Assembly: GCA_021791195.1 (NCBI GenBank)
Contig: JAJYXB010000017.1
Coordinates: 77,422 to 120,218, forward strand
Reading direction: 5' to 3'
Length of the DNA: 42,797 nucleotides
Origin: Actinomycetes bacterium
GTDB lineage: Bacteria > Actinomycetota > Thermoleophilia > BMS3ABIN01
Of the stretch, positions 7,170 to 34,093 are shown in pieces. The notes below the pieces were generated by a model. That model was not told the origin of the DNA. It did not search any database and worked only from the letters and a program-made list of their open reading frames with translations. Both the position numbers and the translations under genes were made by a program. Position 1 is the stretch's first letter. Every line of letters begins with the position of its first letter.

Positions 7170-8243
7170 ATGTCAATGGAGCTGACACCATTTGAGAATC
7201 TTGCCGGGCCGCAGGATCACGGAGCGCGGCTTGCCGGCGCGCGGGCCCGTCCGGCCGGATTCGAGGCGCTGCTGGGCCGGGCGCGCCGGGTGCTGGCCTC
7301 GGTTCCCTGGGAAGGCGATTTCATCGCCAACGGCATCTGGGGAATCGATCTGGCGGCGCTGATGGCGTCGCGGCGGGATGAACTGTTCGTGCTGGACGTC
7401 CGCGCGCGCGAAGACTACGATGCCGGGCATATCGAAGGCGCCGTCCACGTCGAGTTCAGCGAGCTGGCGCTCGCGGAGGGTCTCGGCATGTTCCCCAAAG
7501 ACAGGAAGATCATCGTCGTCTGCCAGGCCGGCAGCCTGTCGGCACAGGCGGTGTCCAGCCTGCGGCTGCTGGGTTACGACGCGGCGATGCTGAAGACCGG
7601 CATGAATGGCTGGGCGCCGGGTCCCGGCCGGGAGGAAGCGCTGGCGGTGATCGAGGCGGCGGCATATCCCGTGATCCAGGCTCCGCCGCTGCCCTGCGCG
7701 GCCCCGGAAGCGGCGGGCGCATTCGACCAGCCTGCGCCCGATGAGCGTGAAGCTGTCCTGGCGCGGCTGCAGGAGCAGATGCAGCTGGCGCGGACGGCCA
7801 GTGCGCGTGTGCCGGCGGCGGATCTGGCTGGCGCCGACGGGGCCGGATTTGTGCCGGTGACTGACAGTGCTGGCGTCATCAGCCCGGAGCAGCTGCACAG
7901 AGCGCTGGTGGATCCGGATGCAAGCGAGCGGCTCTTCCTGCTGGACCTGAGGCGCGAAGAAGATTTCGAGGGCGTGGGACATATCGATGGCGCGGTGCGG
8001 ATGGACTTCGACGCCGCGCTGCTGCCGGAGAACCTGGAGCAGTTGCCACACGGCAGGACGATCGTCACCATCTGTTATTCGGGCAACATGGCCGCCCAGC
8101 TGGCGCAGGTCTTGCGGCTGCTCGGTCACGACGCCGCGGTGCTGGCGTATGGCATGGTCGGCTGGAAGCGGACGCCCACCACTTATCTTTATCTGAAGGA
8201 TCTGCAGAAGGGCGACAACCCGGTGGTCAGCCGCCGCCCCTGA
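7170..8243 (+). CDS. Twin-rhodanese protein, cytoplasmic, both Cys present
   Basis: A 357-residue paralogue of the lipoprotein encoded at 5869, but without a signal peptide. The first rhodanese-like domain has FVLDVRAREDYDAGHIEGA and the active loop CQAGSLSA (Cys118). The second has LFLLDLRREEDFEGVGHIDGA and CYSGNMAA (Cys302). Both close with GM-x-GW. A linker of about 90 residues rich in Ala and acidic residues separates the domains. The expected chemistry is sulfur transfer through a Cys persulfide; donor and acceptor are unknown. The open frame extends upstream, but ATG 7170 with CGGAGC in front is the best start. ATG 7176 is also possible. Confidence 0.85.
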   Translation: MSMELTPFENLAGPQDHGARLAGARARPAGFEALLGRARRVLASVPWEGDFIANGIWGIDLAALMASRRDELFVLDVRAREDYDAGHIEGAVHVEFSELALAEGLGMFPKDRKIIVVCQAGSLSAQAVSSLRLLGYDAAMLKTGMNGWAPGPGREEALAVIEAAAYPVIQAPPLPCAAPEAAGAFDQPAPDEREAVLARLQEQMQLARTASARVPAADLAGADGAGFVPVTDSAGVISPEQLHRALVDPDASERLFLLDLRREEDFEGVGHIDGAVRMDFDAALLPENLEQLPHGRTIVTICYSGNMAAQLAQVLRLLGHDAAVLAYGMVGWKRTPTTYLYLKDLQKGDNPVVSRRP

Positions 8244-8493
8244 CGTCCGGATCATCGCCGTTGCTTTCCCGGCCGGGTTCCTCGCCGCCGCCCCTGACGC
8301 CCTTGTCCTGGCCGCTGTCCGCTCCGAGGCCAGGCTCGTAGCCGGTCTCTATTTCTTCCTGCTCGCGGCGGCGTTCCTTCTTGCCGTACTTGGCCTCCTC
8401 ATGGAAGCCGGCACCCGAGCGCGGCCGTCCGGCGAAAGGGTTGCGCGGCTTTGCCGGCCTGGCCGGCCTCGGTTTTTTACGGCGCTGCGACAT
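8227..8493 (-). CDS. Small highly charged hypothetical protein
   Basis: An 88-residue frame on the minus strand that overlaps the tail of the twin-rhodanese gene by 17 bp. The N-terminal half is Lys/Arg/Pro-rich (MSQRRKKPRPARPAKPRNPF), the middle is KYGKKERRREQEEIE, and the tail is Gly/acidic. It has no cysteine-containing or catalytic motif. GGAGGA lies upstream of the ATG at a rather long distance. The composition looks like a small disordered nucleic-acid- or ribosome-associated protein, but no family is recognised, and it could be a chance frame in GC-rich DNA. Confidence 0.42.
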   Translation of the reverse strand: MSQRRKKPRPARPAKPRNPFAGRPRSGAGFHEEAKYGKKERRREQEEIETGYEPGLGADSGQDKGVRGGGEEPGRESNGDDPDVRGGG

Positions 8494-8668
8494 TTTCCGG
8501 AAGAATTCCTCCGCTTGCCCTCGTCACTTTTTGTACGGCTGCCCGCACCGGCACAAGTCTAATCCTGCCGGCTGCAAGTTGAAAGCAGCTTGTGGATGCC
8601 GCAAAATTAAGACAAGATGCGATCAGGCCCCCGGCAGGCTCAGACCATGAAGGATTTTGACATCAATC

Positions 8669-10162
8669 ATGAATGTTGACAACAACCAGCCCCGGCGCGG
8701 CATTCTGGATGCGGCCGGCCTGTATCTTCTGCTGGCGGCGCTGCTCACCGGCCTGCTCCTCAATGGTGGCTACTTCCCCACCGCCAAAGTGCTGCTTTCG
8801 CTGCTGTTCATCGCTGCCGCGGCGGTGGAGCTGCTGGCGGCGCTGGTAGGGCGCAAAACTCTTGTGCTGCCGGCTCCCTTCTGGATCCTGGCTGTGCTCA
8901 CAGGTCTGGGCGGCGTAAGCATTATCTGGAGTGTCTCGGCGAGCGACACCGTGCGGGAGTCGCTGGCGCTGGCAGGCCTGCTGGCGGCATTCCTCGTTGC
9001 CGCGAGCCAGTTGCGCCATCCGGGAACGCCCGGGAAACTGGCCAGCTGGCTGGCATACAGCGGCGCTTTTGTGGCCGCCTGGGGGATAGTCACATACATC
9101 CTGCGCATGGCGCCGTACAGCGGCGAGGTCGACGGGCTGCTCCGGGCCGGCTCCACCCTTCAGTATTCCAACGCCCTCAGCTGCTTCGCCCTGATGTCCC
9201 TGCCTGTCACGGGCGCCCTCCACCGGCAGGCGGCGCCAGGCGACCGGCCGCTGCTCGCCCTGGGCATCACCCTGGAGACCGCCGCCGTCCTGCTGACTTT
9301 CGCGCGGTTTGGCTATTTTGCCTTGCTGCTTGTGGTCGTTTATCTGGTGGTTGCCGGCCGCCGGCGCTCCGCGGGCCGGGCTGCCGGCCTGGCGGCAGGG
9401 ACCGGCCTGGCCGTCGCGGTGGCGGCGGCGCTGAGTGAGGAAGCCGGCCTGGCGCTGGTCGGACTGGCGGCGGTCGTGGCGATCCTGGGGGCCGCCTGGA
9501 TGGCGCAGTCGTTTCTCGAACCCCCCCGGACTGAGCTTTGCCGGGATCCCCGGAGTTCGACGGCACATGGCTGCCGCCGTGATTCGCGCGCCGTCGCGGG
9601 GGCGTTTGCCTTCGTGCTCCCCGCGGCGATGGTGGTGTTTGCGGATCGCAGTCTCAGGCACATCGCCTGGGAGAGGTTTGGAGCGGGCCTCAGCCCCGCC
9701 AGCCTGCTGCCGAACCGGCTGGATACATTTGCCGGCGCAGTCGACGCCTTTCGCGTGCGGCCGCTGACCGGATCCGGCCTGGGCACCTTTGCAATCACGT
9801 TTCAGCGCTACGCCATCGCCTCGTATACCAGATTTGCCCACAACCTGGTGCTGCAGACAGCGGTGGATACGGGCGCGATCGGCGCGGCGCTGATGACGGC
9901 ATTTCTGATCTGGGCCGCGGCGCTGGCCCTGCGCCGGTTGCTGGCGGGTGCGGAACCGCTCTGCCTCGCGTTCGCCCTCACATCCCTGATCTTCATCGCG
10001 TACAACATGTTCGACTGGGAATGGTATTCGACGGCGCTGGCCGGCTGGTTTGTCGTAGCGGTGGCGGTCACGGCCGGAAAAACCGGGGACACCTTAGTTC
10101 CAGAAAATCTCCGCCGGTCTATTTCACCAGCAGATCCACTGTCAGGAAGAAGACGTAGATGA
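8669..10162 (+). CDS. O-antigen ligase/polymerase-like membrane protein
   Basis: A protein of about 497 residues with roughly a dozen hydrophobic segments. Near the C-terminus it has the Wzy_C/WaaL-type signature: GSGLGTFAITFQRYA followed by TRFAHNLVLQTAVDTGAIGA. Members of this family polymerise or ligate lipid-linked glycans on the outer side of the cytoplasmic membrane. A hydrophilic loop of about 35 residues (around residues 285-320, with two Cys) interrupts the helices. The start is uncertain: ATG 8669 lacks a clear ribosome site and TTG 8657 is in frame. The last 15 codons overlap the 3' end of the convergent mqnP-like gene. Confidence 0.72.
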   Translation: MNVDNNQPRRGILDAAGLYLLLAALLTGLLLNGGYFPTAKVLLSLLFIAAAAVELLAALVGRKTLVLPAPFWILAVLTGLGGVSIIWSVSASDTVRESLALAGLLAAFLVAASQLRHPGTPGKLASWLAYSGAFVAAWGIVTYILRMAPYSGEVDGLLRAGSTLQYSNALSCFALMSLPVTGALHRQAAPGDRPLLALGITLETAAVLLTFARFGYFALLLVVVYLVVAGRRRSAGRAAGLAAGTGLAVAVAAALSEEAGLALVGLAAVVAILGAAWMAQSFLEPPRTELCRDPRSSTAHGCRRDSRAVAGAFAFVLPAAMVVFADRSLRHIAWERFGAGLSPASLLPNRLDTFAGAVDAFRVRPLTGSGLGTFAITFQRYAIASYTRFAHNLVLQTAVDTGAIGAALMTAFLIWAAALALRRLLAGAEPLCLAFALTSLIFIAYNMFDWEWYSTALAGWFVVAVAVTAGKTGDTLVPENLRRSISPADPLSGRRRR

Positions 10163-17780: not shown

Positions 17781-20657
17781 ATGAAGCACATTATCAATAA
17801 GAGCCGGAAGCTCAGGATCGCCGCGATTCTGGCCCCCCTGGCTCTGCTGGTTGTGCTGGCGATTGCCGTTGCCGGATATGCCAGCGCCGGGAGCTCCGTT
17901 TATTGCACGTATGGCAATTGCGGCAGCAGCCTGGCTCCCAACGCATCTTATGGCATCAGCAATCAGCTTCTATATGTAGCAAACGGCCTTTCCAGCAACG
18001 TGAAGGTGATCGACGTCGGCACCATGAATATCGTCGATACCATTCCGGTACCCAACGAAGCGGCTCCTGCCGGCATTCACGCGTTGAATCCGAGCCTGAT
18101 GAATTGGGAGATCCACGGAGTGGTACCTTCCGCTGACCACAAGGACATCTATGCGGTTGGCGCTCTCAACGGTGGCAGCTGGTCTACCACCGCTGATACG
18201 TCGTCAACCTTCCAGATGGGCGTCTACAAGGCGTACAAGATCAACACCGCCACCAAGACGCTTGACGGCACTGTCCCGCTGGAGCAGATCGCACAGGCGA
18301 CTGATCCTAACATGGGCGCTCCCAAGGTCGACAAGAACGGCAATCCCGTCATGGCGCCGACCAACAGCATGAACCCGGTCGGCTACTGCGGCCTTCAGTA
18401 CAACCTGAACGACGTCAACTCGAACTACCTGGTCGCCGCTTCGATGAACGCCGATGACGCGACGCTGTCGACGGCGCTGAAGGATCCGAGTACCGGTCAG
18501 CCGGTCAATCTGGGGCGGCCCGCTGCCGATCAGACGGGTGGCTGGACCACGGTCAACCTCTCCACCGGCCAGTTCTCGAGCTTCATGAGCGCTGACTACA
18601 ACGGCAATCTCGAATCCAGCACCTGCGGCATCGCCTGGAACGCCAACGGCACCCAGGCCTATGCCTCGCAGATGTTCGAGCCGTTGATTGACACGGTCAA
18701 CTGGAATGCAGCGGCCGCTACCGGCACGCTCACCGGCTCGATTGGCGCACTCCCGAACACCATGTACCACCAGGAGACCACGGACAAGGCCAAGGGCCAT
18801 CTGTTCGTCTCCGAAGAGAACAACATCGACGTCTACGACATGAGCACCAACACCCAGGTCGCCACCATCAATGTCTACGGCCTGCTGGGCGCCACCAAAG
18901 GCGTGCACACGCACAGCGTCGCATTCACCAACGCTGGTGGAAAAGACGTTCTCTACGCGACTGTGCGCAACTTCCCCGTGGGAAGCGCAAGCGAGATCGT
19001 TTTGGATGTATCCAACCTGAGCAGCCCGGTCCTCATCGGCTCAATATCCGGCCTCGATCCGGAAGCCTGCGGCGTCTACGCCGACACGGACAAGAGTCAG
19101 TACTATGAGGCCTCCGGCCTGACCGCCAATGCTCAGGTGGCACCGGAAGCGCCGCATAATGCTCTGAACAATGACCTGCTGTTCGTGGCCAACGGCCGCT
19201 CGAGCAACGTCAAGGTCCTGGACCCGGGCTCGCTGAAGATCGTCGACACCATTCCGGTGCCGAACGAGCAGACGCCTGCCGGCCTGCACGCCATGAACCC
19301 CGGTCTGATGAACTGGGAGGTCCATAGCATCGTCGTCTCGAAGGACAGGACGAAGATCTACACCGCGGGCGCTCTCTCCGGCGGCAGCTACCAGACTCCG
19401 GGCGACACCAGCTCTCCGTTCCAGCTGGCCGATTATCAGCTCTACACGATCGGCACCGCCAACAAGACGCTGGAAGCGCATGCGCCGCTTGCGGGTCCGA
19501 ACGATCCGGTCAACCTCGTGGGTTACTGCGGCATGGAATTCAATCTCAACAACGAGAACTCCAACATCCTCGTTGCGTCTTCCATGAACGCCTCGAACGC
19601 CACGCTGAAGACCGCGCTGAAGAATCCTGACGGTACGCCGTTTGATGCCGGCAGCGCCCGCGGCTCGGGTCACTCCGAGCTCGGCGGCTGGTCTTCGTTC
19701 AACCTGAGCACGGGCCAGAACATCGGCTTCGTCTCGGGTGACGGCTCCAATCTGGTCGACGCGTTGGGCAACGTGATCAGCGCTGACACCAACTCGCCAG
19801 AGTCCAGCACCTGCGGCATCACTTGGAACGCTGCCGGCACTGAGGGTTATGCCTCGCAGATGTTCCAGCCGCTGGTCAACAAGATCAACTGGGACGGCGC
19901 TACCGGTACCGGTACTTCCGCTGGCGTAGCCTTCCCGGCTTCAACGGTGCCTGGCACCATGTACCATCAGGAGGCGATGGACAAGGCTACCGGCATGCTC
20001 TTTATCGCCAGTAGCTCCGGCAACATCGACGTGATGGATTCGAACACCGGCGCGATAGTGGGCGCGATTGACGTCAGTTCGCTGGTTGGCACCCAGCCGG
20101 ATGTGCACGGCGTCGAGCTGTCACCGAGTGATCCGAGCATCCTCTATGTTACCGCGCGCAACACGCCGTCGGTGAATCATGCCACTGAGCTGATCCTCAA
20201 GGTCGGGAATGAGCAGAATCCCGCGACGACTACGACTCTGCTGGGCGCAATCCCGAATCTCGACATGGCCGCCTGCGGCGTCTATGCCATCGGGGACAAG
20301 GCGACCTGGCAGGCGGTGCAGGACACGACCGCTCCGAGCCTGGCGCTGTATCAGAACCGCGTCTACTGGGGCAGCATGGCGGACTACCAGGCTGGCAAGC
20401 TGTCGGTTGACTGGAGCATCAGCGCCGGCGCCACCAGCTCCGCGGCCTCCGGCGTCACCGTCGTCGGTGCGCATAGCACTAACGGCGTTTCGCTCGCCTC
20501 GGCGATGCCTCTGAATATCGGCGACATCGGCGCCACCGGCAGTGCTGGATTCACCCTCCAGTACAATGTGCCCAGCGGTGTCTCCGTGTTCATGACATCG
20601 ACATACGCGACTGCTGATGGCGGTACGTTCACCTATCCGGGCCCGTACACGCCATAA
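17781..20657 (+). CDS. Exported duplicated beta-propeller protein with shared C-terminal domain
   Basis: A 958-residue protein. A signal peptide probably ends at YASA (residue 36); the mature N-terminus carries a C-x4-C (Cys42, Cys47). Residues about 61-446 and 463-840 are two copies of one YVTN/LVIVD-like propeller unit. Matching pairs include LLYVANGLSSNVKVIDVG with LLFVANGRSSNVKVLDPG, and MNWEIHG with MNWEVHS. Each copy keeps three Cys (YCG, STCGI, A-CGVYA) and His in NWE-[IV]-H, MYHQE and near VH. Residues about 848-958 are a separate domain (WGSMADYQAGKL ... LQYNVPSGVS) also found in the protein encoded at 22821. The start has AAGGAGGAAGG upstream. The function is unknown; the conserved Cys/His suggest metal binding or disulfides. 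A 41-codon peptide gene follows 38 nt later. Confidence 0.85.
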   Translation: MKHIINKSRKLRIAAILAPLALLVVLAIAVAGYASAGSSVYCTYGNCGSSLAPNASYGISNQLLYVANGLSSNVKVIDVGTMNIVDTIPVPNEAAPAGIHALNPSLMNWEIHGVVPSADHKDIYAVGALNGGSWSTTADTSSTFQMGVYKAYKINTATKTLDGTVPLEQIAQATDPNMGAPKVDKNGNPVMAPTNSMNPVGYCGLQYNLNDVNSNYLVAASMNADDATLSTALKDPSTGQPVNLGRPAADQTGGWTTVNLSTGQFSSFMSADYNGNLESSTCGIAWNANGTQAYASQMFEPLIDTVNWNAAAATGTLTGSIGALPNTMYHQETTDKAKGHLFVSEENNIDVYDMSTNTQVATINVYGLLGATKGVHTHSVAFTNAGGKDVLYATVRNFPVGSASEIVLDVSNLSSPVLIGSISGLDPEACGVYADTDKSQYYEASGLTANAQVAPEAPHNALNNDLLFVANGRSSNVKVLDPGSLKIVDTIPVPNEQTPAGLHAMNPGLMNWEVHSIVVSKDRTKIYTAGALSGGSYQTPGDTSSPFQLADYQLYTIGTANKTLEAHAPLAGPNDPVNLVGYCGMEFNLNNENSNILVASSMNASNATLKTALKNPDGTPFDAGSARGSGHSELGGWSSFNLSTGQNIGFVSGDGSNLVDALGNVISADTNSPESSTCGITWNAAGTEGYASQMFQPLVNKINWDGATGTGTSAGVAFPASTVPGTMYHQEAMDKATGMLFIASSSGNIDVMDSNTGAIVGAIDVSSLVGTQPDVHGVELSPSDPSILYVTARNTPSVNHATELILKVGNEQNPATTTTLLGAIPNLDMAACGVYAIGDKATWQAVQDTTAPSLALYQNRVYWGSMADYQAGKLSVDWSISAGATSSAASGVTVVGAHSTNGVSLASAMPLNIGDIGATGSAGFTLQYNVPSGVSVFMTSTYATADGGTFTYPGPYTP

Positions 20658-20695
20658 AGGCCAATACTGACTTGCAAGCTGAAAAGGAGAACGGC

Positions 20696-20821
20696 ATGGC
20701 ACAGAAAAGCCAGCGTGAACCTTACGCCAAGCCGGCGCTGGTCAAGCACGAGAACCTGAAAGAGATCACGTTTGAGTGCGCCAACTGGCAGTGCAGCGTA
20801 GTGGTTCCGCAACAGCCGTAG
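20696..20821 (+). CDS. Cys-containing precursor-like peptide, copy 1
   Basis: A 41-residue open frame with a good AAGGAG site six nt before the ATG. The N-terminal half is hydrophilic and leader-like (PYAKPALVKHENLKEIT); the C-terminal half is TFECANWQCSVVVPQQP. A second gene at 24731 encodes nearly the same peptide after the next large exported protein, which is the main evidence that it is real. Tyr10, Pro13, Leu15, Glu19, Leu21 and Thr25 fall in the register of lasso-peptide leaders (Y-x2-P-x-L-x3-G-x5-T). However, the would-be core has no Asp or Glu at ring positions 7-9, so a lasso product is unlikely. No signal peptide. Possible roles: RiPP precursor, peptide-derived cofactor, or small partner of the propeller. 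Confidence 0.8.
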   Translation: MAQKSQREPYAKPALVKHENLKEITFECANWQCSVVVPQQP

Positions 20822-20851
20822 GCTGACGGCAAACGGACGATAGCTGAAATA

Positions 20852-20885
20852 CCGGGAGGACCGCCCGGATGGGCGGTCCTCCCGG
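20852..20885 (+). terminator. Perfect 15-bp hairpin after peptide gene 1
   Basis: CCGGGAGGACCGCCC (20852-20866) pairs perfectly with 20871-20885 around a GGAT loop. It starts 31 nt after the peptide stop. No T-run follows, so it may be a transcript-stabilising or processing hairpin, or only a partial terminator between the two modules. Confidence 0.65.
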
Positions 20886-20976
20886 ACCAAGCTTGAAATC
20901 CGGGCAGAAATGGCGGAGAAGACGTACAATATCGTTACGTGTTTTTTCCGCAAACAAGACAAGGAGAGCATGAGGA

Positions 20977-21558
20977 ATGAAGAGAGCTGTAGCTAGAACG
21001 TTCAGCGGGCCGCGGGGAAGGGAGAAGACCACAGCAGCGATTGTGATTCTGACGACGTTGATACTGACGCTCATATTGGGAGGATGCGGCGGCTCAGGCA
21101 GTCAGAGCACCGGCACTGGCTCTCAGCTTGATCAGCGGGCAGCGGGGGCATCGGCAGCCGGTAATACCGGCACAAATGCAACGGGCACCGCGACGGCGCC
21201 CGCGGTCAGCGGCAACGAGCAGGTACTGGCCGGGTACACGGCGGATCAGTGTCTTGCCGACATGGCCGCCCGTTATGGCACCAGCAGCGATGCCCAGCGG
21301 GTCTGCGCCCAGGTCCACCAGGACTTTGGCGCGAACGCACCCAAGACGCAGCTGCCGGCTGCGCTCACGCAGACTGAAAGCAAACTCGGCGTCAAACCGG
21401 TTGCCGGACAGCCGCCGGCGGCGAACGTATCCGCTGGCAACGGCGGAGGGGCGCCGGCAGGCGGCGGCACAACGGGTGGCGGGTCGGGCGGCACGAGCTC
21501 GGGCTGGGATAACGGTGGCATCGTCATCACGGTGCCGCAGGGACCAGCCGGACCGTAA
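20977..21558 (+). CDS. Small lipoprotein of the peptide locus
   Basis: A 193-residue protein with a basic N-terminus, one hydrophobic helix and the lipobox LILGGC (Cys near residue 37), so it should be anchored to the outer leaflet. After a Ser/Thr/Gly/Ala-rich linker comes a short helical core, VLAGYTADQCLADMAARYGTS then AQRVCAQVHQDFG, with two Cys that could pair. The tail is Gly/Ser/Thr-rich and ends IVITVPQGPAGP. I do not recognise a family. It lies between the two peptide modules on the same strand, 18 nt before the HPrK-like frame, and probably shares a transcript with it. GAGGA sits just before the ATG. Confidence 0.8.
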   Translation: MKRAVARTFSGPRGREKTTAAIVILTTLILTLILGGCGGSGSQSTGTGSQLDQRAAGASAAGNTGTNATGTATAPAVSGNEQVLAGYTADQCLADMAARYGTSSDAQRVCAQVHQDFGANAPKTQLPAALTQTESKLGVKPVAGQPPAANVSAGNGGGAPAGGGTTGGGSGGTSSGWDNGGIVITVPQGPAGP

Positions 21559-21596
21559 CCGCCCGGCAGATACAAGTGAAAGACGAAAGAGAATTC

Positions 21597-22622
21597 ATGC
21601 CAGGGAAACTCAGCCAGCGCATCGGGCAGCGTTTTAGTGACGCCAGGCCGAATGCGGCGACATACGACGTGCACGGCGTAGTGACCAAAGTGTATGCCGA
21701 CGATCATCTGCTGGCCCTGGCAGTTCAGGACTTTCTGCGGCCTTTCCGCGGACAGCCGGATGCGGCGCCGGACATTGAATTCTATCTTTTGACCAAGGAC
21801 AGCGGCTCCGCCGGCGCCCCCAGCGATTACTTTGCGGGCGCCGAGCTGCTTTATGACTGGCAGGTCCTGCGCTACAGCAGGGAAGGCCAGCTGCGTTACC
21901 AGGAGGTCCCGGGGGCGGGATCGATTGTGGCCGATCTGGACCAGGGCATTGCGGTGGCATTCGTCGAAAGTGAAATCGCCGCCTGCACCTGGTCGGTGAC
22001 TCACGTCGTCTTCTTCCCCATCTGGGCGCAGTTGCTGAAAACCCGGGGGATATTCCCGGTTCATGCCGCCGGCCTGGAACGTGGCGGCAAGGGCATCCTC
22101 TTTCCCGGAAAGAGCGGTTGCGGCAAGTCTACACTTTCACTTCATCTGCTCCACAACGGCTTCAGGCTGCTGGGGGACGATACCGTTTTTGTCAGGCAGG
22201 CAGGCGGGGGAGCAGAGATGCTCTTCTTTCCCGAGGAGGTCGACGTCTGCCCGGAAACAATCGACCTCTTCCCAACGCTGGCGCTGGCACGCAATCTTGC
22301 CGACGACCGCTGGCAGCCGAAACAGAGGGTGAACCTCAACGCGGTTAAGTCGAGCAAGGTCGTCGAGGCATCGCCGGTCGATCTGCTTGTATTTCCCGTG
22401 ATCGCCGCCGACGGCGTCACCCGTTGCGAGCGCGTCAACCAGACCGAAGCGCTCGCCGAGCTTATCCTCTATGCATTCCTGTTTATGGATCCGCAGACCA
22501 GCAAGGAGAACTTCGCGCTCCTTGCGGGCCTGGTGCAGTCGGTGGCCTGCTTCCGGCTGCACATGGGCCTTGACGGCGCCGCCCTGGCCGGCACCATTGA
22601 CGAAATTATCGCGGCGACGTAA
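21597..22622 (+). CDS. HPr kinase-like P-loop protein
   Basis: A 341-residue soluble protein. The N-terminal half is unassigned (about 155 residues, ending WSVTHVVFFPIWAQLLKTRG). It is followed by FPVHAAGLERGGKGILFPGKS and the P-loop GKSGCGKSTLS (about residues 171-181), then LLGDDTVFV, the family's aspartate pair after the P-loop. This is the HPrK/P fold seen as stand-alone proteins in lasso-peptide and other peptide clusters, where characterised members phosphorylate the precursor peptide. No HPr or PTS gene is nearby, which argues against a classical HPr kinase. The likely substrate here is one of the adjacent peptides (inference). The start could be GTG 21576; ATG 21597 has an AAAGAG upstream. 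Confidence 0.8.
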   Translation: MPGKLSQRIGQRFSDARPNAATYDVHGVVTKVYADDHLLALAVQDFLRPFRGQPDAAPDIEFYLLTKDSGSAGAPSDYFAGAELLYDWQVLRYSREGQLRYQEVPGAGSIVADLDQGIAVAFVESEIAACTWSVTHVVFFPIWAQLLKTRGIFPVHAAGLERGGKGILFPGKSGCGKSTLSLHLLHNGFRLLGDDTVFVRQAGGGAEMLFFPEEVDVCPETIDLFPTLALARNLADDRWQPKQRVNLNAVKSSKVVEASPVDLLVFPVIAADGVTRCERVNQTEALAELILYAFLFMDPQTSKENFALLAGLVQSVACFRLHMGLDGAALAGTIDEIIAAT

Positions 22623-22820
22623 TATTAGATGCCGCAATACCGGTTGTGGCTTTTTCCCCGGCCGGCAGGTGGGTGATTGCATGCCTCATCTGCCGGATGG
22701 ATCTGCAGTTGTGGGACTGCGGACGGGGCAAAGGTAAGGGGGATGGGGTCCGCGATGAGCGGCCCGACAATAGGTCCGCACAAAGCGGAAAATCACTAGG
22801 TGAGGATGAAGGGAGGAAGG

Positions 22821-24683
22821 ATGCAAACAAGATCGAAATTTCTGCTTCGATCGACAGTCATTGTACTGGGTCTGATGCTGGCGCTGGGGTTGTATTTAAG
22901 CCTGAGTTACAGCAGCAGGGCCAACGGCATCGGCGTCAGCGACTGGACAAAGCTGCAGCAGTACGTAGACGCTTACATCCAGCGTCAGTACACACCCAAC
23001 GGTGAAGGTGAGGGCAGCGTCACCCAGAACAAGGAGGGCTTTTACGTCAACCAGGCGGGTCTGCACGGCATGCTGGACTCAAATGGTGACGGCACCATCC
23101 TGGGTGAGGGTGACGACCTGGCGAAAGCGCCGGTGCTGATCGACAATCTCAGCGGCTTTACCACCCTCATTCCGGGAACGAGCTTCCGCTGCAACTGGAA
23201 CACCAGCTGCTTCGGTGCCAGCGCGGTCGCCGATATCAGGGGTGAGGTAGACGCGCACGAGGCGGCAACAGGACTCGTGCCCGACGTGATCAATTACTGC
23301 CTGACCGATCACACCGCCGCACCGACCACCGGCGCCCTGGGCTACATCGCCCAGACTGGCGCCCTGGCCAGCGACGGTTCCATACCGTACGTCTACGGCT
23401 TCACCTGGGGCCGCGACGGCTGGACCAACACGCCGGCAAACGGCGGCGCCACCACGACGGGCGGCATCTACACCTACGCCAAGTCCAATCCCGTTGCCGC
23501 TCCGGCGGCTTTGGGCACGTATACCGAGCCGTCGACGGTTCCCGGCTCATGTACCAGCGGCTCCGGCGACGCCGAACTGGTGCGTTGCGCGGCCGCATGG
23601 GCGATCGGTTCCACCGCCGGCAACGTTGGCAACGGCCAGATTCCGGGAGGCGCCAGCCCCGCCCAGACGCTCACCGGCGGGCAGATCGTGGACATCAGGT
23701 CGGATATGCCCGGCCAGACAGTGCAAGCCGGATCGGTGACGGCAAACGAGGTGCCGATCAACACCATCTTCAACACCGGTCTGCTTAACGTGAACCCCAG
23801 CGCCACTGGCGGCGTGCTGATCGCCAGCGCCTCGCAGGGCCCGGGCGGCATCGTCGCCGAGGGCCTGAAAATGCTGGGCTATGCGACGGCGACCGGCGGC
23901 TACATCCACAGCGGCGTGCCCTACTGGAACAACACCATGTCGGTGAGCCAGGGGCAGCCAAACACGGGCGTCTCCTATGCGCTGCTGACAGGTGTCAGCG
24001 CATCAGTGCCCGGAACCTCAGCCGCCACCGGCTTCAGCGATGTGGATTCCAGCGGCGTGGCTTGCGCTACCTGCGCGGGCCCGACGATCAGCAGCCCCAG
24101 CGCTACCGCAACCAGCAGCACCACAGCGACGGTCAGCAGGACGACCTCGGTGCCGTCTACCACCAAGATCGATCTGAACGGCAGCGACGGCTCTTCGGTG
24201 CACGTCAACAACACCATCCTGCATGCCAGTGACACGGAGAACCTGACCGGGCTGCATGCGGGTGTCACCTACACTGGCACGCTGACCGCGTACAACGGGC
24301 TGGCATACCCCAGCAGCACGCCGATCAGCTTCAGCACATGCGCCGGCGGCCAGCCCGGCCTGTCACTCGCGGTTACGGGCGCGACCTGGGGCTCGCTGGC
24401 CAACTACAATGCCGGCCTGCTGACTGTTTCGTTCAAGATGAGCGACTCGGTCAACGCCGCGTATAATGTGCAGATAACGGCTGTGTCCGGCACCAATGGC
24501 GTTACGCTCAATACGGCACTGCCGTATACGGTCGGTTCCGGTTCCATCGCCGCCGGCGGCTCGCTCGGGTTCTCGCTCCAGTACAATGTACCGTCGGGCG
24601 TGAGCCTGTTCCACACGTCGCTGTCCGCCAGCGCCGCGGATGTGTGCGGTAGCACGTACACATACGGTCCTCCGGCAGCCTAA
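22821..24683 (+). CDS. Exported divergent twin-rhodanese/FN3 protein with shared C-terminal domain
   Basis: A 620-residue protein with one N-terminal hydrophobic helix (signal or anchor). A divergent rhodanese-like domain follows, with VLIDNLSG near 104, the loop NYCLTDHTAAPTTGALGYIA with Cys160 at the catalytic place, and WGRDGW near 199. A second one has IVDIRSD near 291 and AGSVTANEVPIN, but SASQGPGG with Ser336 in place of Cys, and GLKMLGY. Then comes an FN3-like segment (TSSTTATVSRTTS ... LTGLHAGVTYTGTLTAYNG). The last 105 or so residues (TWGSLANYNAGLL ... LQYNVPSGVS) match the C-terminus of the propeller protein. Start ATG 22821 has GGGAGGAAGG in front; GTG 22800 is in frame. A peptide gene follows 47 nt later. 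Role unknown; export and the sulfurtransferase fold are the solid parts. Confidence 0.8.
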   Translation: MQTRSKFLLRSTVIVLGLMLALGLYLSLSYSSRANGIGVSDWTKLQQYVDAYIQRQYTPNGEGEGSVTQNKEGFYVNQAGLHGMLDSNGDGTILGEGDDLAKAPVLIDNLSGFTTLIPGTSFRCNWNTSCFGASAVADIRGEVDAHEAATGLVPDVINYCLTDHTAAPTTGALGYIAQTGALASDGSIPYVYGFTWGRDGWTNTPANGGATTTGGIYTYAKSNPVAAPAALGTYTEPSTVPGSCTSGSGDAELVRCAAAWAIGSTAGNVGNGQIPGGASPAQTLTGGQIVDIRSDMPGQTVQAGSVTANEVPINTIFNTGLLNVNPSATGGVLIASASQGPGGIVAEGLKMLGYATATGGYIHSGVPYWNNTMSVSQGQPNTGVSYALLTGVSASVPGTSAATGFSDVDSSGVACATCAGPTISSPSATATSSTTATVSRTTSVPSTTKIDLNGSDGSSVHVNNTILHASDTENLTGLHAGVTYTGTLTAYNGLAYPSSTPISFSTCAGGQPGLSLAVTGATWGSLANYNAGLLTVSFKMSDSVNAAYNVQITAVSGTNGVTLNTALPYTVGSGSIAAGGSLGFSLQYNVPSGVSLFHTSLSASAADVCGSTYTYGPPAA

Positions 24684-24730
24684 GGCCCAGGAGAAAGGCA
24701 AACGACAAAATGAACATAGGAGAAACCGAT

Positions 24731-24853
24731 ATGACAAAGGACATACGGCAGCCCTATGCGAAGCCGGAACTGGTTAGGCACGAGAACCTGAAGGATGTCA
24801 CCTTCGAGTGCGCCAACTGGCAATGCAGCGTAGTGGTTCCGAAGCAGCCGTAG
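24731..24853 (+). CDS. Cys-containing precursor-like peptide, copy 2
   Basis: A 40-residue frame with AGGAGA eight nt upstream. From PYAKP to the end it differs from copy 1 at only five positions (A/E, K/R, E/D, I/V, Q/K), and TFECANWQCSVVVP is identical. The last 12 shared codons differ by one silent base, while the leader codons carry many silent changes. This means the C-terminal half is under tighter constraint or was recently converted. The ATG at 24710 is in frame and would add seven residues, but its ribosome site is poorer. The order large exported protein then peptide repeats that at 17781-20821. Confidence 0.8.
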   Translation: MTKDIRQPYAKPELVRHENLKDVTFECANWQCSVVVPKQP

Positions 24854-24885
24854 CGATAACCTGCTTATAGCAACGGCAGAAACAC

Positions 24886-24923
24886 CGGGGGCGGCCTGCA
24901 AGGGCCGCCCCCGTTCTGTTCTT
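24886..24923 (+). terminator. Intrinsic terminator closing the peptide locus
   Basis: CGGGGGCGGCC (24886-24896) pairs with GGCCGCCCCCG (24903-24913) around TGCAAG, followed by TTCTGTTCTT. It begins 32 nt after the second peptide gene. It lies between convergent genes and may also stop the diguanylate cyclase transcript from the other side, though less well. Confidence 0.85.
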
Positions 24924-25019
24924 GGAAGTCAATTGGCAGGAAACAGGGCGCATCGCGAAACACCCCCAAGTGTCTATACCCTGACCTCCAAAAACCTGTA
25001 AAGCGGAGCTGTGCTGCCG

Positions 25020-34018: not shown

Positions 34019-34093
34019 TGGGGCGTAGCCAAGTGGTAAGGCAACGGGTTTTGGTCCCGTGATTCGGAGGTTCGAATCCTCCCGCCCCAGCCA
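34019..34093 (+). tRNA. tRNA-Gln (anticodon TTG)
   Basis: A full cloverleaf. Acceptor arm TGGGGCG pairs with CGCCCCA. The D arm is AGCCAAGTGGTAAGGC. The anticodon stem ACGGG/CCCGT holds loop TTTTGGT, giving anticodon TTG. The T arm is GGAGG-TTCGAAT-CCTCC, and the discriminator is G with an encoded CCA end. It lies between ispE and glmU, a spot used for tRNA-Gln in several actinobacteria, and is flanked by a promoter and a terminator of its own. Confidence 0.97.

Follow-up and report, generated by a model that had tools for sequence, protein, structure and literature searches.

The closest described counterparts of the system treated here are two kinds of phosphorylated, ribosomally synthesized and post-translationally modified peptides (RiPPs). 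Linear polyphosphorylated peptides (LPP), described from Bacillota in 2026, are made without a cyclase by systems that combine an HPrK-like kinase, a discrete RiPP recognition element (RRE) and a nucleoside triphosphate (NTP) transferase; their leaders carry a YxxP motif and their loci lie within polysaccharide genes (PMC13381572). Phosphorylated lasso peptides of the paeninodin type, among them Bsf of Bradymonas, depend on B1, B2 and an HPrK-like kinase, and lasso leaders are reported to be recognized at Tyr-17, Pro-14, Leu-12 and Thr-2 (PMC10368454). In LPP and Bsf biosynthesis, HPrK-like kinases phosphorylate a core Ser, assisted by the RRE (PMC13381572, PMC10368454). The roles of LPP and of paeninodin-type phosphorylated RiPPs are stated as unknown, although one lead points to the loci of capsular polysaccharides (PMC13381572).

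Here we describe a related system from an Actinomycetes bacterium (assembly GCA_021791195.1) that belongs to a little-known actinobacterial family of uncultured subsurface and sediment bacteria. The window, the whole stretch analyzed, comprises 42,797 nt of contig JAJYXB010000017.1. Its module block (17781-24853) encodes two exported proteins, each followed by a short peptide gene, with a lipoprotein and an HPrK-like kinase, K1, in between. Probably, the peptides are precursors handled by lasso-type enzymes without a cyclase, and the processed peptide is an accessory of surface proteins sharing a C-terminal domain (CTD). A sequence-only reading of the window had proposed a new peptide-modification system; our analysis points rather to a cyclase-less relative of the lasso and LPP RiPPs. 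The new element is the coupling to a surface-protein domain, together with a family-wide, multi-copy and near-invariant precursor. A literature search for RiPPs tied to surface proteins found none among the papers covered.

Peptide family, leader and core

A profile built from three copies of the window's own genome gave 149 matches, which occurred in 19/19 genomes of the host family (4-12 per genome) and in 0/80 other genomes of the class, bearing out the expected conservation in relatives. Scanning the contigs of 84,980 species with a pattern yielded 77 peptide loci, all of them by title from actinobacterial or Thermoleophilia metagenome-assembled genomes, an uncultured bacterium or bacterium BMS3Abin01. 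The conservation counts below refer to 94 peptide copies with flanking DNA. Residues P13, T25, C28, W31, C33, S34, V37 and P38 are invariant in all 94, and the two peptides of the window are 73% identical. Between moderately diverged copies, 73% of the codons with a single difference are synonymous, compared with 22% expected without selection. By these sequence comparisons the peptide gene is under purifying selection and the peptides are a genuine, strongly conserved paralogous gene family. Pfam and NCBIfam gave no usable family; a weak match to the Ogr_Delta zinc finger was taken as chance. A strong hairpin lies 3′ of 75% of the peptide genes and of 5% of control stretches, indicating that the peptide gene usually ends its transcription unit.

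The pattern Y..P.[LIV].{9}T..C..W.CS fits 92/94 copies. If the core begins at residue 27, a start itself taken from lasso leader spacing, then Tyr, Pro, Leu and Thr take positions -17, -14, -12 and -2, respectively, in these 92 copies, in agreement with the earlier proposal of a RiPP-type precursor. The predicted core, ECxxW[Q/S]CSVxVPxxP, is mostly 15-17 residues long, and the invariant Ser34 becomes its Ser8. Asp or Glu is found at core positions 7-9 in 0/92 cores, so that a lasso ring could not close in the usual way. The leader, here Y.KP.LVKHDNLK.ITFEC, fails the LPP consensus YxxPxVLxHQxIxFETxxS, with which it has YxxP and a few further positions in common.

Candidate modifying enzymes and the search for a cyclase

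Candidate enzymes are encoded elsewhere in the genome, as had been suggested: a second HPrK-like kinase (K2), a PqqD-type RRE and a lasso B2-type protease form an operon on contig G000:C17. The order K2-PqqD-B2 beside hemW-hrcA-dnaJ-type genes recurs across the family, and its components are widespread in the family genomes (PqqD in 19/19, B2-type Transglut_core3 in 16/19, HPrK-like kinase in 18/19). In the window's genome the only PqqD is the one in this operon, which lies on the margin of a polysaccharide locus; that locus includes an NTP transferase gene. Such a transferase (PF14907) is present in 11/19 genomes and in most of them shares the contig of the operon, about 33 kb away at most and in a polysaccharide locus.

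The best PDB match of PqqD is TbiB1, a lasso RRE, with TfuB1 also close; its closest NCBIfam model is NF033536, and the lasso-specific PqqD models all remained below their own cut-offs. B2 scored 36.9 bits against the lasso B2 model NF033537 (cut-off 33) and keeps Cys81 and His128 in 17/17 sequences; it had no match among PDB sequences. K1 shares 35% identity with K2, and the His, the P-loop (GKSGCGKST in K1) and Asp-Asp are retained in the two kinases. TIGR04352 (HprK-related kinase A, of PqqD-family systems) is the best NCBIfam model for both, with 65.6 bits (3.9e-18) for K1 and 51.6 bits for K2 against a cut-off of 200, so that neither is a member by that model, whose cut-off was exceeded in 0/19 family genomes. 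K1 also matched PF07475 (4.5e-8; 33.2 bits, cut-off 33.3). The operon of K1 with the lipoprotein and the two modules recurs across the family as well. The predicted co-occurrence of peptide and kinase needs qualification for gene neighborhoods, as K1 adjoins only two of the 4-12 precursor copies per genome.

Asn_synthase proteins are present in 19/19 genomes. Two such proteins of the own genome (G000:C24) were considered as lasso cyclases and rejected: they scored 247 and 256 bits against the NF033535 cut-off of 525, exceed the asparagine synthase cut-off and are unlinked to the RRE-B2 operon. By these scores the only full-length candidates of this genome are asparagine synthases, not lasso cyclases.

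By the tests made, this set of genes resembles the machinery of LPP and of phosphorylated lasso RiPPs in its way of working and is a member of neither group. It shares with LPP systems the lack of a cyclase, the HPrK-like kinase, the discrete RRE, the YxxP motif and the setting within polysaccharide genes; the PF14907 protein is a candidate counterpart of the LPP NTP transferase, for which the LPP paper gives no Pfam accession (PMC13381572). It departs from LPP in its leader consensus and in the lasso B2 that occupies the place of the SpI-like leader peptidase LppS. No LppS-like gene was found in the K2-PqqD-B2 operon, no SpI-model search of the genome having been made, and an MsbA-like exporter, as LPP loci have, was not found among the ORFs (open reading frames) of the part of the locus read around the operon, for which no genome-wide model search was made. 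Moreover, the 4-12 precursor copies of a genome are dispersed and stand next to exported CTD proteins, their core is short and near-invariant where LPP C-termini vary, and the system occurs in 19/19 genomes of a family of Actinomycetota, whereas LPP are patchy. With the phosphorylated lasso systems it has in common Y-17, P-14, L-12, a conserved residue at -2 and the set of B1, B2 and HPrK-like kinase (PMC10368454). It is not a lasso system because cyclase and ring acceptor both fail; its precursors also lie apart from the enzymes.

The shared domain and its partner proteins

The last ~100 amino acids of exported proteins 1 and 2 are about 50% identical, while the N-terminal parts differ (beta-propeller versus degenerate rhodanese-like), in line with the earlier description of unlike architectures joined to one domain. 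AlphaFold2 modeled the CTD as an Ig (immunoglobulin)-like beta-sandwich. Foldseek returned general Ig-like matches only, none at E ≤ 0.001, and the CTD profile had no significant match among PDB sequences. CARDB/DUF11 repeats are likewise Ig-like beta-sandwiches and weakly matched 10/37 CTD members (best E 0.0009-0.0025); in contrast to them, the CTD is mostly C-terminal and nearly confined to the host family, with 11-38 matches per family genome and one marginal match among 41 other genomes.

Genes around the peptide copies of relatives were surveyed in stretches of the genomes by picking the longest ORFs, and these calls are approximate. The predicted co-occurrence of peptide and CTD far exceeds chance: 69/94 peptide copies begin 13-199 nt after the end of a CTD gene. 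In the own genome, 4/5 copies directly follow one of the 17 CTD matches, for which the chance probability is near 3e-8 if 2000 genes are assumed; copies across genomes share ancestry and are thus not independent events. Two of the other copies are cut off where their contig begins. Three copies (two in locus L064, one in L089) precede a gene with a CTD-like domain nearer the N-terminus, followed by 249 or 350 residues; in L064 this is a propeller-like protein. The pairing therefore survives a change of order. A partnerless copy between a TIGR00725-like gene and hemC was seen at L036, L058, L059, L062, L063, L069, L072, L079, L080, L082, L085, L086, L093 and L113.

The partners carrying the CTD belong to several mutually unrelated types, namely beta-propellers, rhodanese-like proteins, c-type cytochromes, an EB_dh protein and repeat proteins. 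Exported protein 2 itself gave no match in a Pfam scan, but L066, a member of its cluster, matched the rhodanese family PF00581 at 5.9e-23, and a YC motif is conserved. An AlphaFold2 model of exported protein 2 built from 8 sequences reached a pLDDT (predicted local distance difference test score) of 48 and was not used.

CTD genes also adjoin 10/18 K2-PqqD-B2 loci examined and are present in 7/7 examined cassettes of a second, radical SAM-type RRE system of some relatives. This cassette (L160, L161, L162, L163, L262, L263, L264) holds PqqD, a radical SAM (S-adenosylmethionine)/SPASM protein, an HPrK-like protein, a small peptidase-like gene and an exported CTD protein that ends in FPGPPP or similar, and it adjoins 2-oxoacid:ferredoxin oxidoreductase-type genes but yielded no recognizable precursor peptide. 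Two further arrangements were observed. L034 (G000:C14:182000-200000) in the own genome holds four CTD genes within about 11 kb, only one with a peptide gene behind it. L099 (G005:C30) has two adjacent, near-identical copies of exported gene plus peptide gene; the module appears to have been duplicated in tandem recently.

Proposed product, alternatives and locus features

The genomes show directly the peptide family with its leader spacing, the set of enzymes, the lack of both cyclase and ring acceptor and the link to the CTD; that the peptide is cleaved, phosphorylated and exported, and that it serves as a tail ligand, anchor or cofactor, is inferred from these data and from the known systems. 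In the pathway that we propose, a lasso-type machine would have lost its cyclase or never had one. Residues 1-26 would act as leader, read by the PqqD-type RRE via Y-17, P-14 and L-12, and the transglutaminase-fold peptidase B2 would cut after residue 26, behind Thr at -2, freeing the linear core ECxxWQCSVxVPxxP(A). K2, K1 or both may then phosphorylate the core, presumably at the invariant Ser8, and where a genome has an NTP transferase, this enzyme may extend the phosphate. The most likely product is a linear peptide that has lost its leader and bears phosphate on Ser, akin to LPP and paeninodin-type RiPPs. It would be a shared accessory of the CTD surface proteins, with its production coupled to theirs because the majority of precursor genes stand directly behind a CTD gene, and the W...V-x-VPxxP tail of the peptide would probably be a ligand or anchor at the surface. 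The tail GW..GGI.I.VP..P of the lipoprotein, kept in 10/10 orthologs, resembles the core motif W.CSV.VP..P (by eye, with no statistic attached), which would fit a common docking partner. More tentatively, one may imagine a RiPP pathway turned housekeeping, in which an abundant, processed and near-invariant (phospho)peptide made with each exported CTD protein completes, anchors or caps it at the surface and the lipoprotein tail is a membrane-bound mimic; we regard this as possible but doubtful.

Several observations weigh against the proposed pathway. A conserved peptide copy beside hemC has neither a CTD nor an exported partner, and the 17 CTD matches of the own genome face 5 peptide matches; the CTD being commoner than the peptide, most CTD proteins do without an adjacent precursor. 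The precursor genes are not linked to the K2-PqqD-B2 operon, so that the pairing of enzymes and precursors rests on leader fit and co-occurrence, and no RiPP-type exporter was recognized near the operon. B2 has Glu at the position where McjB has Asp. Finally, the characterized Bsf and LPP kinases act on Ser3, but here the conserved Ser occupies core position 8.

Other explanations account for part of the data. An ordinary lasso peptide with its cyclase elsewhere, for instance encoded by an Asn-synthase-like gene at G000:C24, would agree with leader, RRE and B2 of lasso type and with the family-wide Asn_synthase proteins, but is very improbable given cores without Asp or Glu at positions 7-9 (92/92 copies) and the scores and unlinked position of the C24 proteins. 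Tight coupling and strong conservation over both peptide halves would also be expected of small unmodified peptides that are translated together with the exported proteins and act as accessories or regulators, their lasso-like leader reflecting convergence or RRE titration. We find this improbable, as four lasso determinants stand at exact spacing in 92/94 copies with a matching RRE and B2 in the same genomes, and a conserved copy far from exported genes argues against a purely cis role.

The leader might also be cut to yield not a phosphopeptide but a redox or metal cofactor on CxxWxC, formed by oxidation or cross-linking and serving electron or sulfur transfer. Cys28, Trp31 and Cys33 are invariant, several of the partner proteins belong to the cytochromes c, the EB_dh or the rhodanese proteins, and the radical SAM/SPASM cassette lies beside a CTD gene in some family genomes. 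Such a cofactor is nevertheless rather improbable: in the own genome the single PqqD adjoins a kinase and B2 instead of a radical SAM enzyme, many of the partners belong to non-redox types, and two HPrK-like kinases with intact motifs would lack an explanation. K1, which stands beside only two precursor copies per genome, might act only on protein substrates of its own operon or on HPr-like carriers, its place beside the peptides being coincidental. This too appears unlikely in view of its similarity to K2, which sits with RRE and B2, and of its recurring operon with lipoprotein and two modules; it would be compatible with the proposed pathway if K2 were the RiPP kinase.

The near-invariant core, the many copies and the family-wide presence point to a fixed surface role. 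Family-wide machinery, an almost unchanging core and precursors wired to the CTD together argue for a structural or cofactor role at the surface, not an antimicrobial one, and the CTD partners are named proteins against which peptide function can be tested. Lasso-type RRE and B2 genes can thus exist unlinked to a cyclase or to likely precursors, and genome mining based on clusters would miss such systems.

ORF inspection placed the six ORFs of the module block on the + strand (Table 1). As described before, the lipoprotein and HPrK-like genes lie between the two modules, each peptide ATG follows the stop codon of its exported-protein gene within 50 nt (38 nt for peptide 1, 47 nt for peptide 2), and a terminator closes the block. 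Both peptide genes are preceded by an AGGAGA-type ribosome site. With the hairpin behind peptide 1, each module ends in a hairpin.

Table 1 Features of the module block (window positions) and of the K2-PqqD-B2 operon (contig positions).
Feature	Position	Strand	Details
Exported protein 1, 958 aa	17781..20657	+	two YVTN/YncE-like beta-propeller halves and CTD; TIGR02276 beta_rpt_yvtn 1.4e-10; orthologous partners in cluster 1
CTD of exported protein 1, Ig-like beta-sandwich	20319..20654	+	AlphaFold2 mean pLDDT 94.9; alignment
Precursor peptide 1, 41 aa	20696..20821	+	MAQKSQREPYAKPALVKHENLKEITF before and ECANWQCSVVVPQQP after the predicted cleavage
15-bp perfect hairpin 3′ of peptide 1, without T run	about 20852..20886	+	hairpin scan
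Lipoprotein, 193 aa	20977..21558	+	lipobox LGGC; Gly/Pro linker; conserved C-terminal tail
HPrK-like kinase K1, 348 aa	21576..22622	+	TIGR04352 and PF07475 matches below cut-offs; motifs kept
Terminator-like hairpin 3′ of K1	22631..22650	+	hairpin count in region not above shuffles
Exported protein 2, 620 aa	22821..24683	+	degenerate rhodanese-like N-terminal part, Fn3-like part, CTD; listed ORF start 22800
CTD of exported protein 2	24345..24680	+	alignment
Precursor peptide 2, 40 aa	24731..24853	+	MTKDIRQPYAKPELVRHENLKDVTF before and ECANWQCSVVVPKQP after the predicted cleavage
Terminator hairpin closing the block	24886..24913	+	12-bp G+C stem, T-rich tail; -37.7 kcal/mol for 24870-24925
Own-genome operon, G000:C17, locus L144	K2 8122-9282; PqqD 9279-9581; B2 9550-10020		followed by DUF2079 membrane protein

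A promoter scan gave nothing above chance. The only Rfam match in the window is a tRNA gene at 34019-34090.

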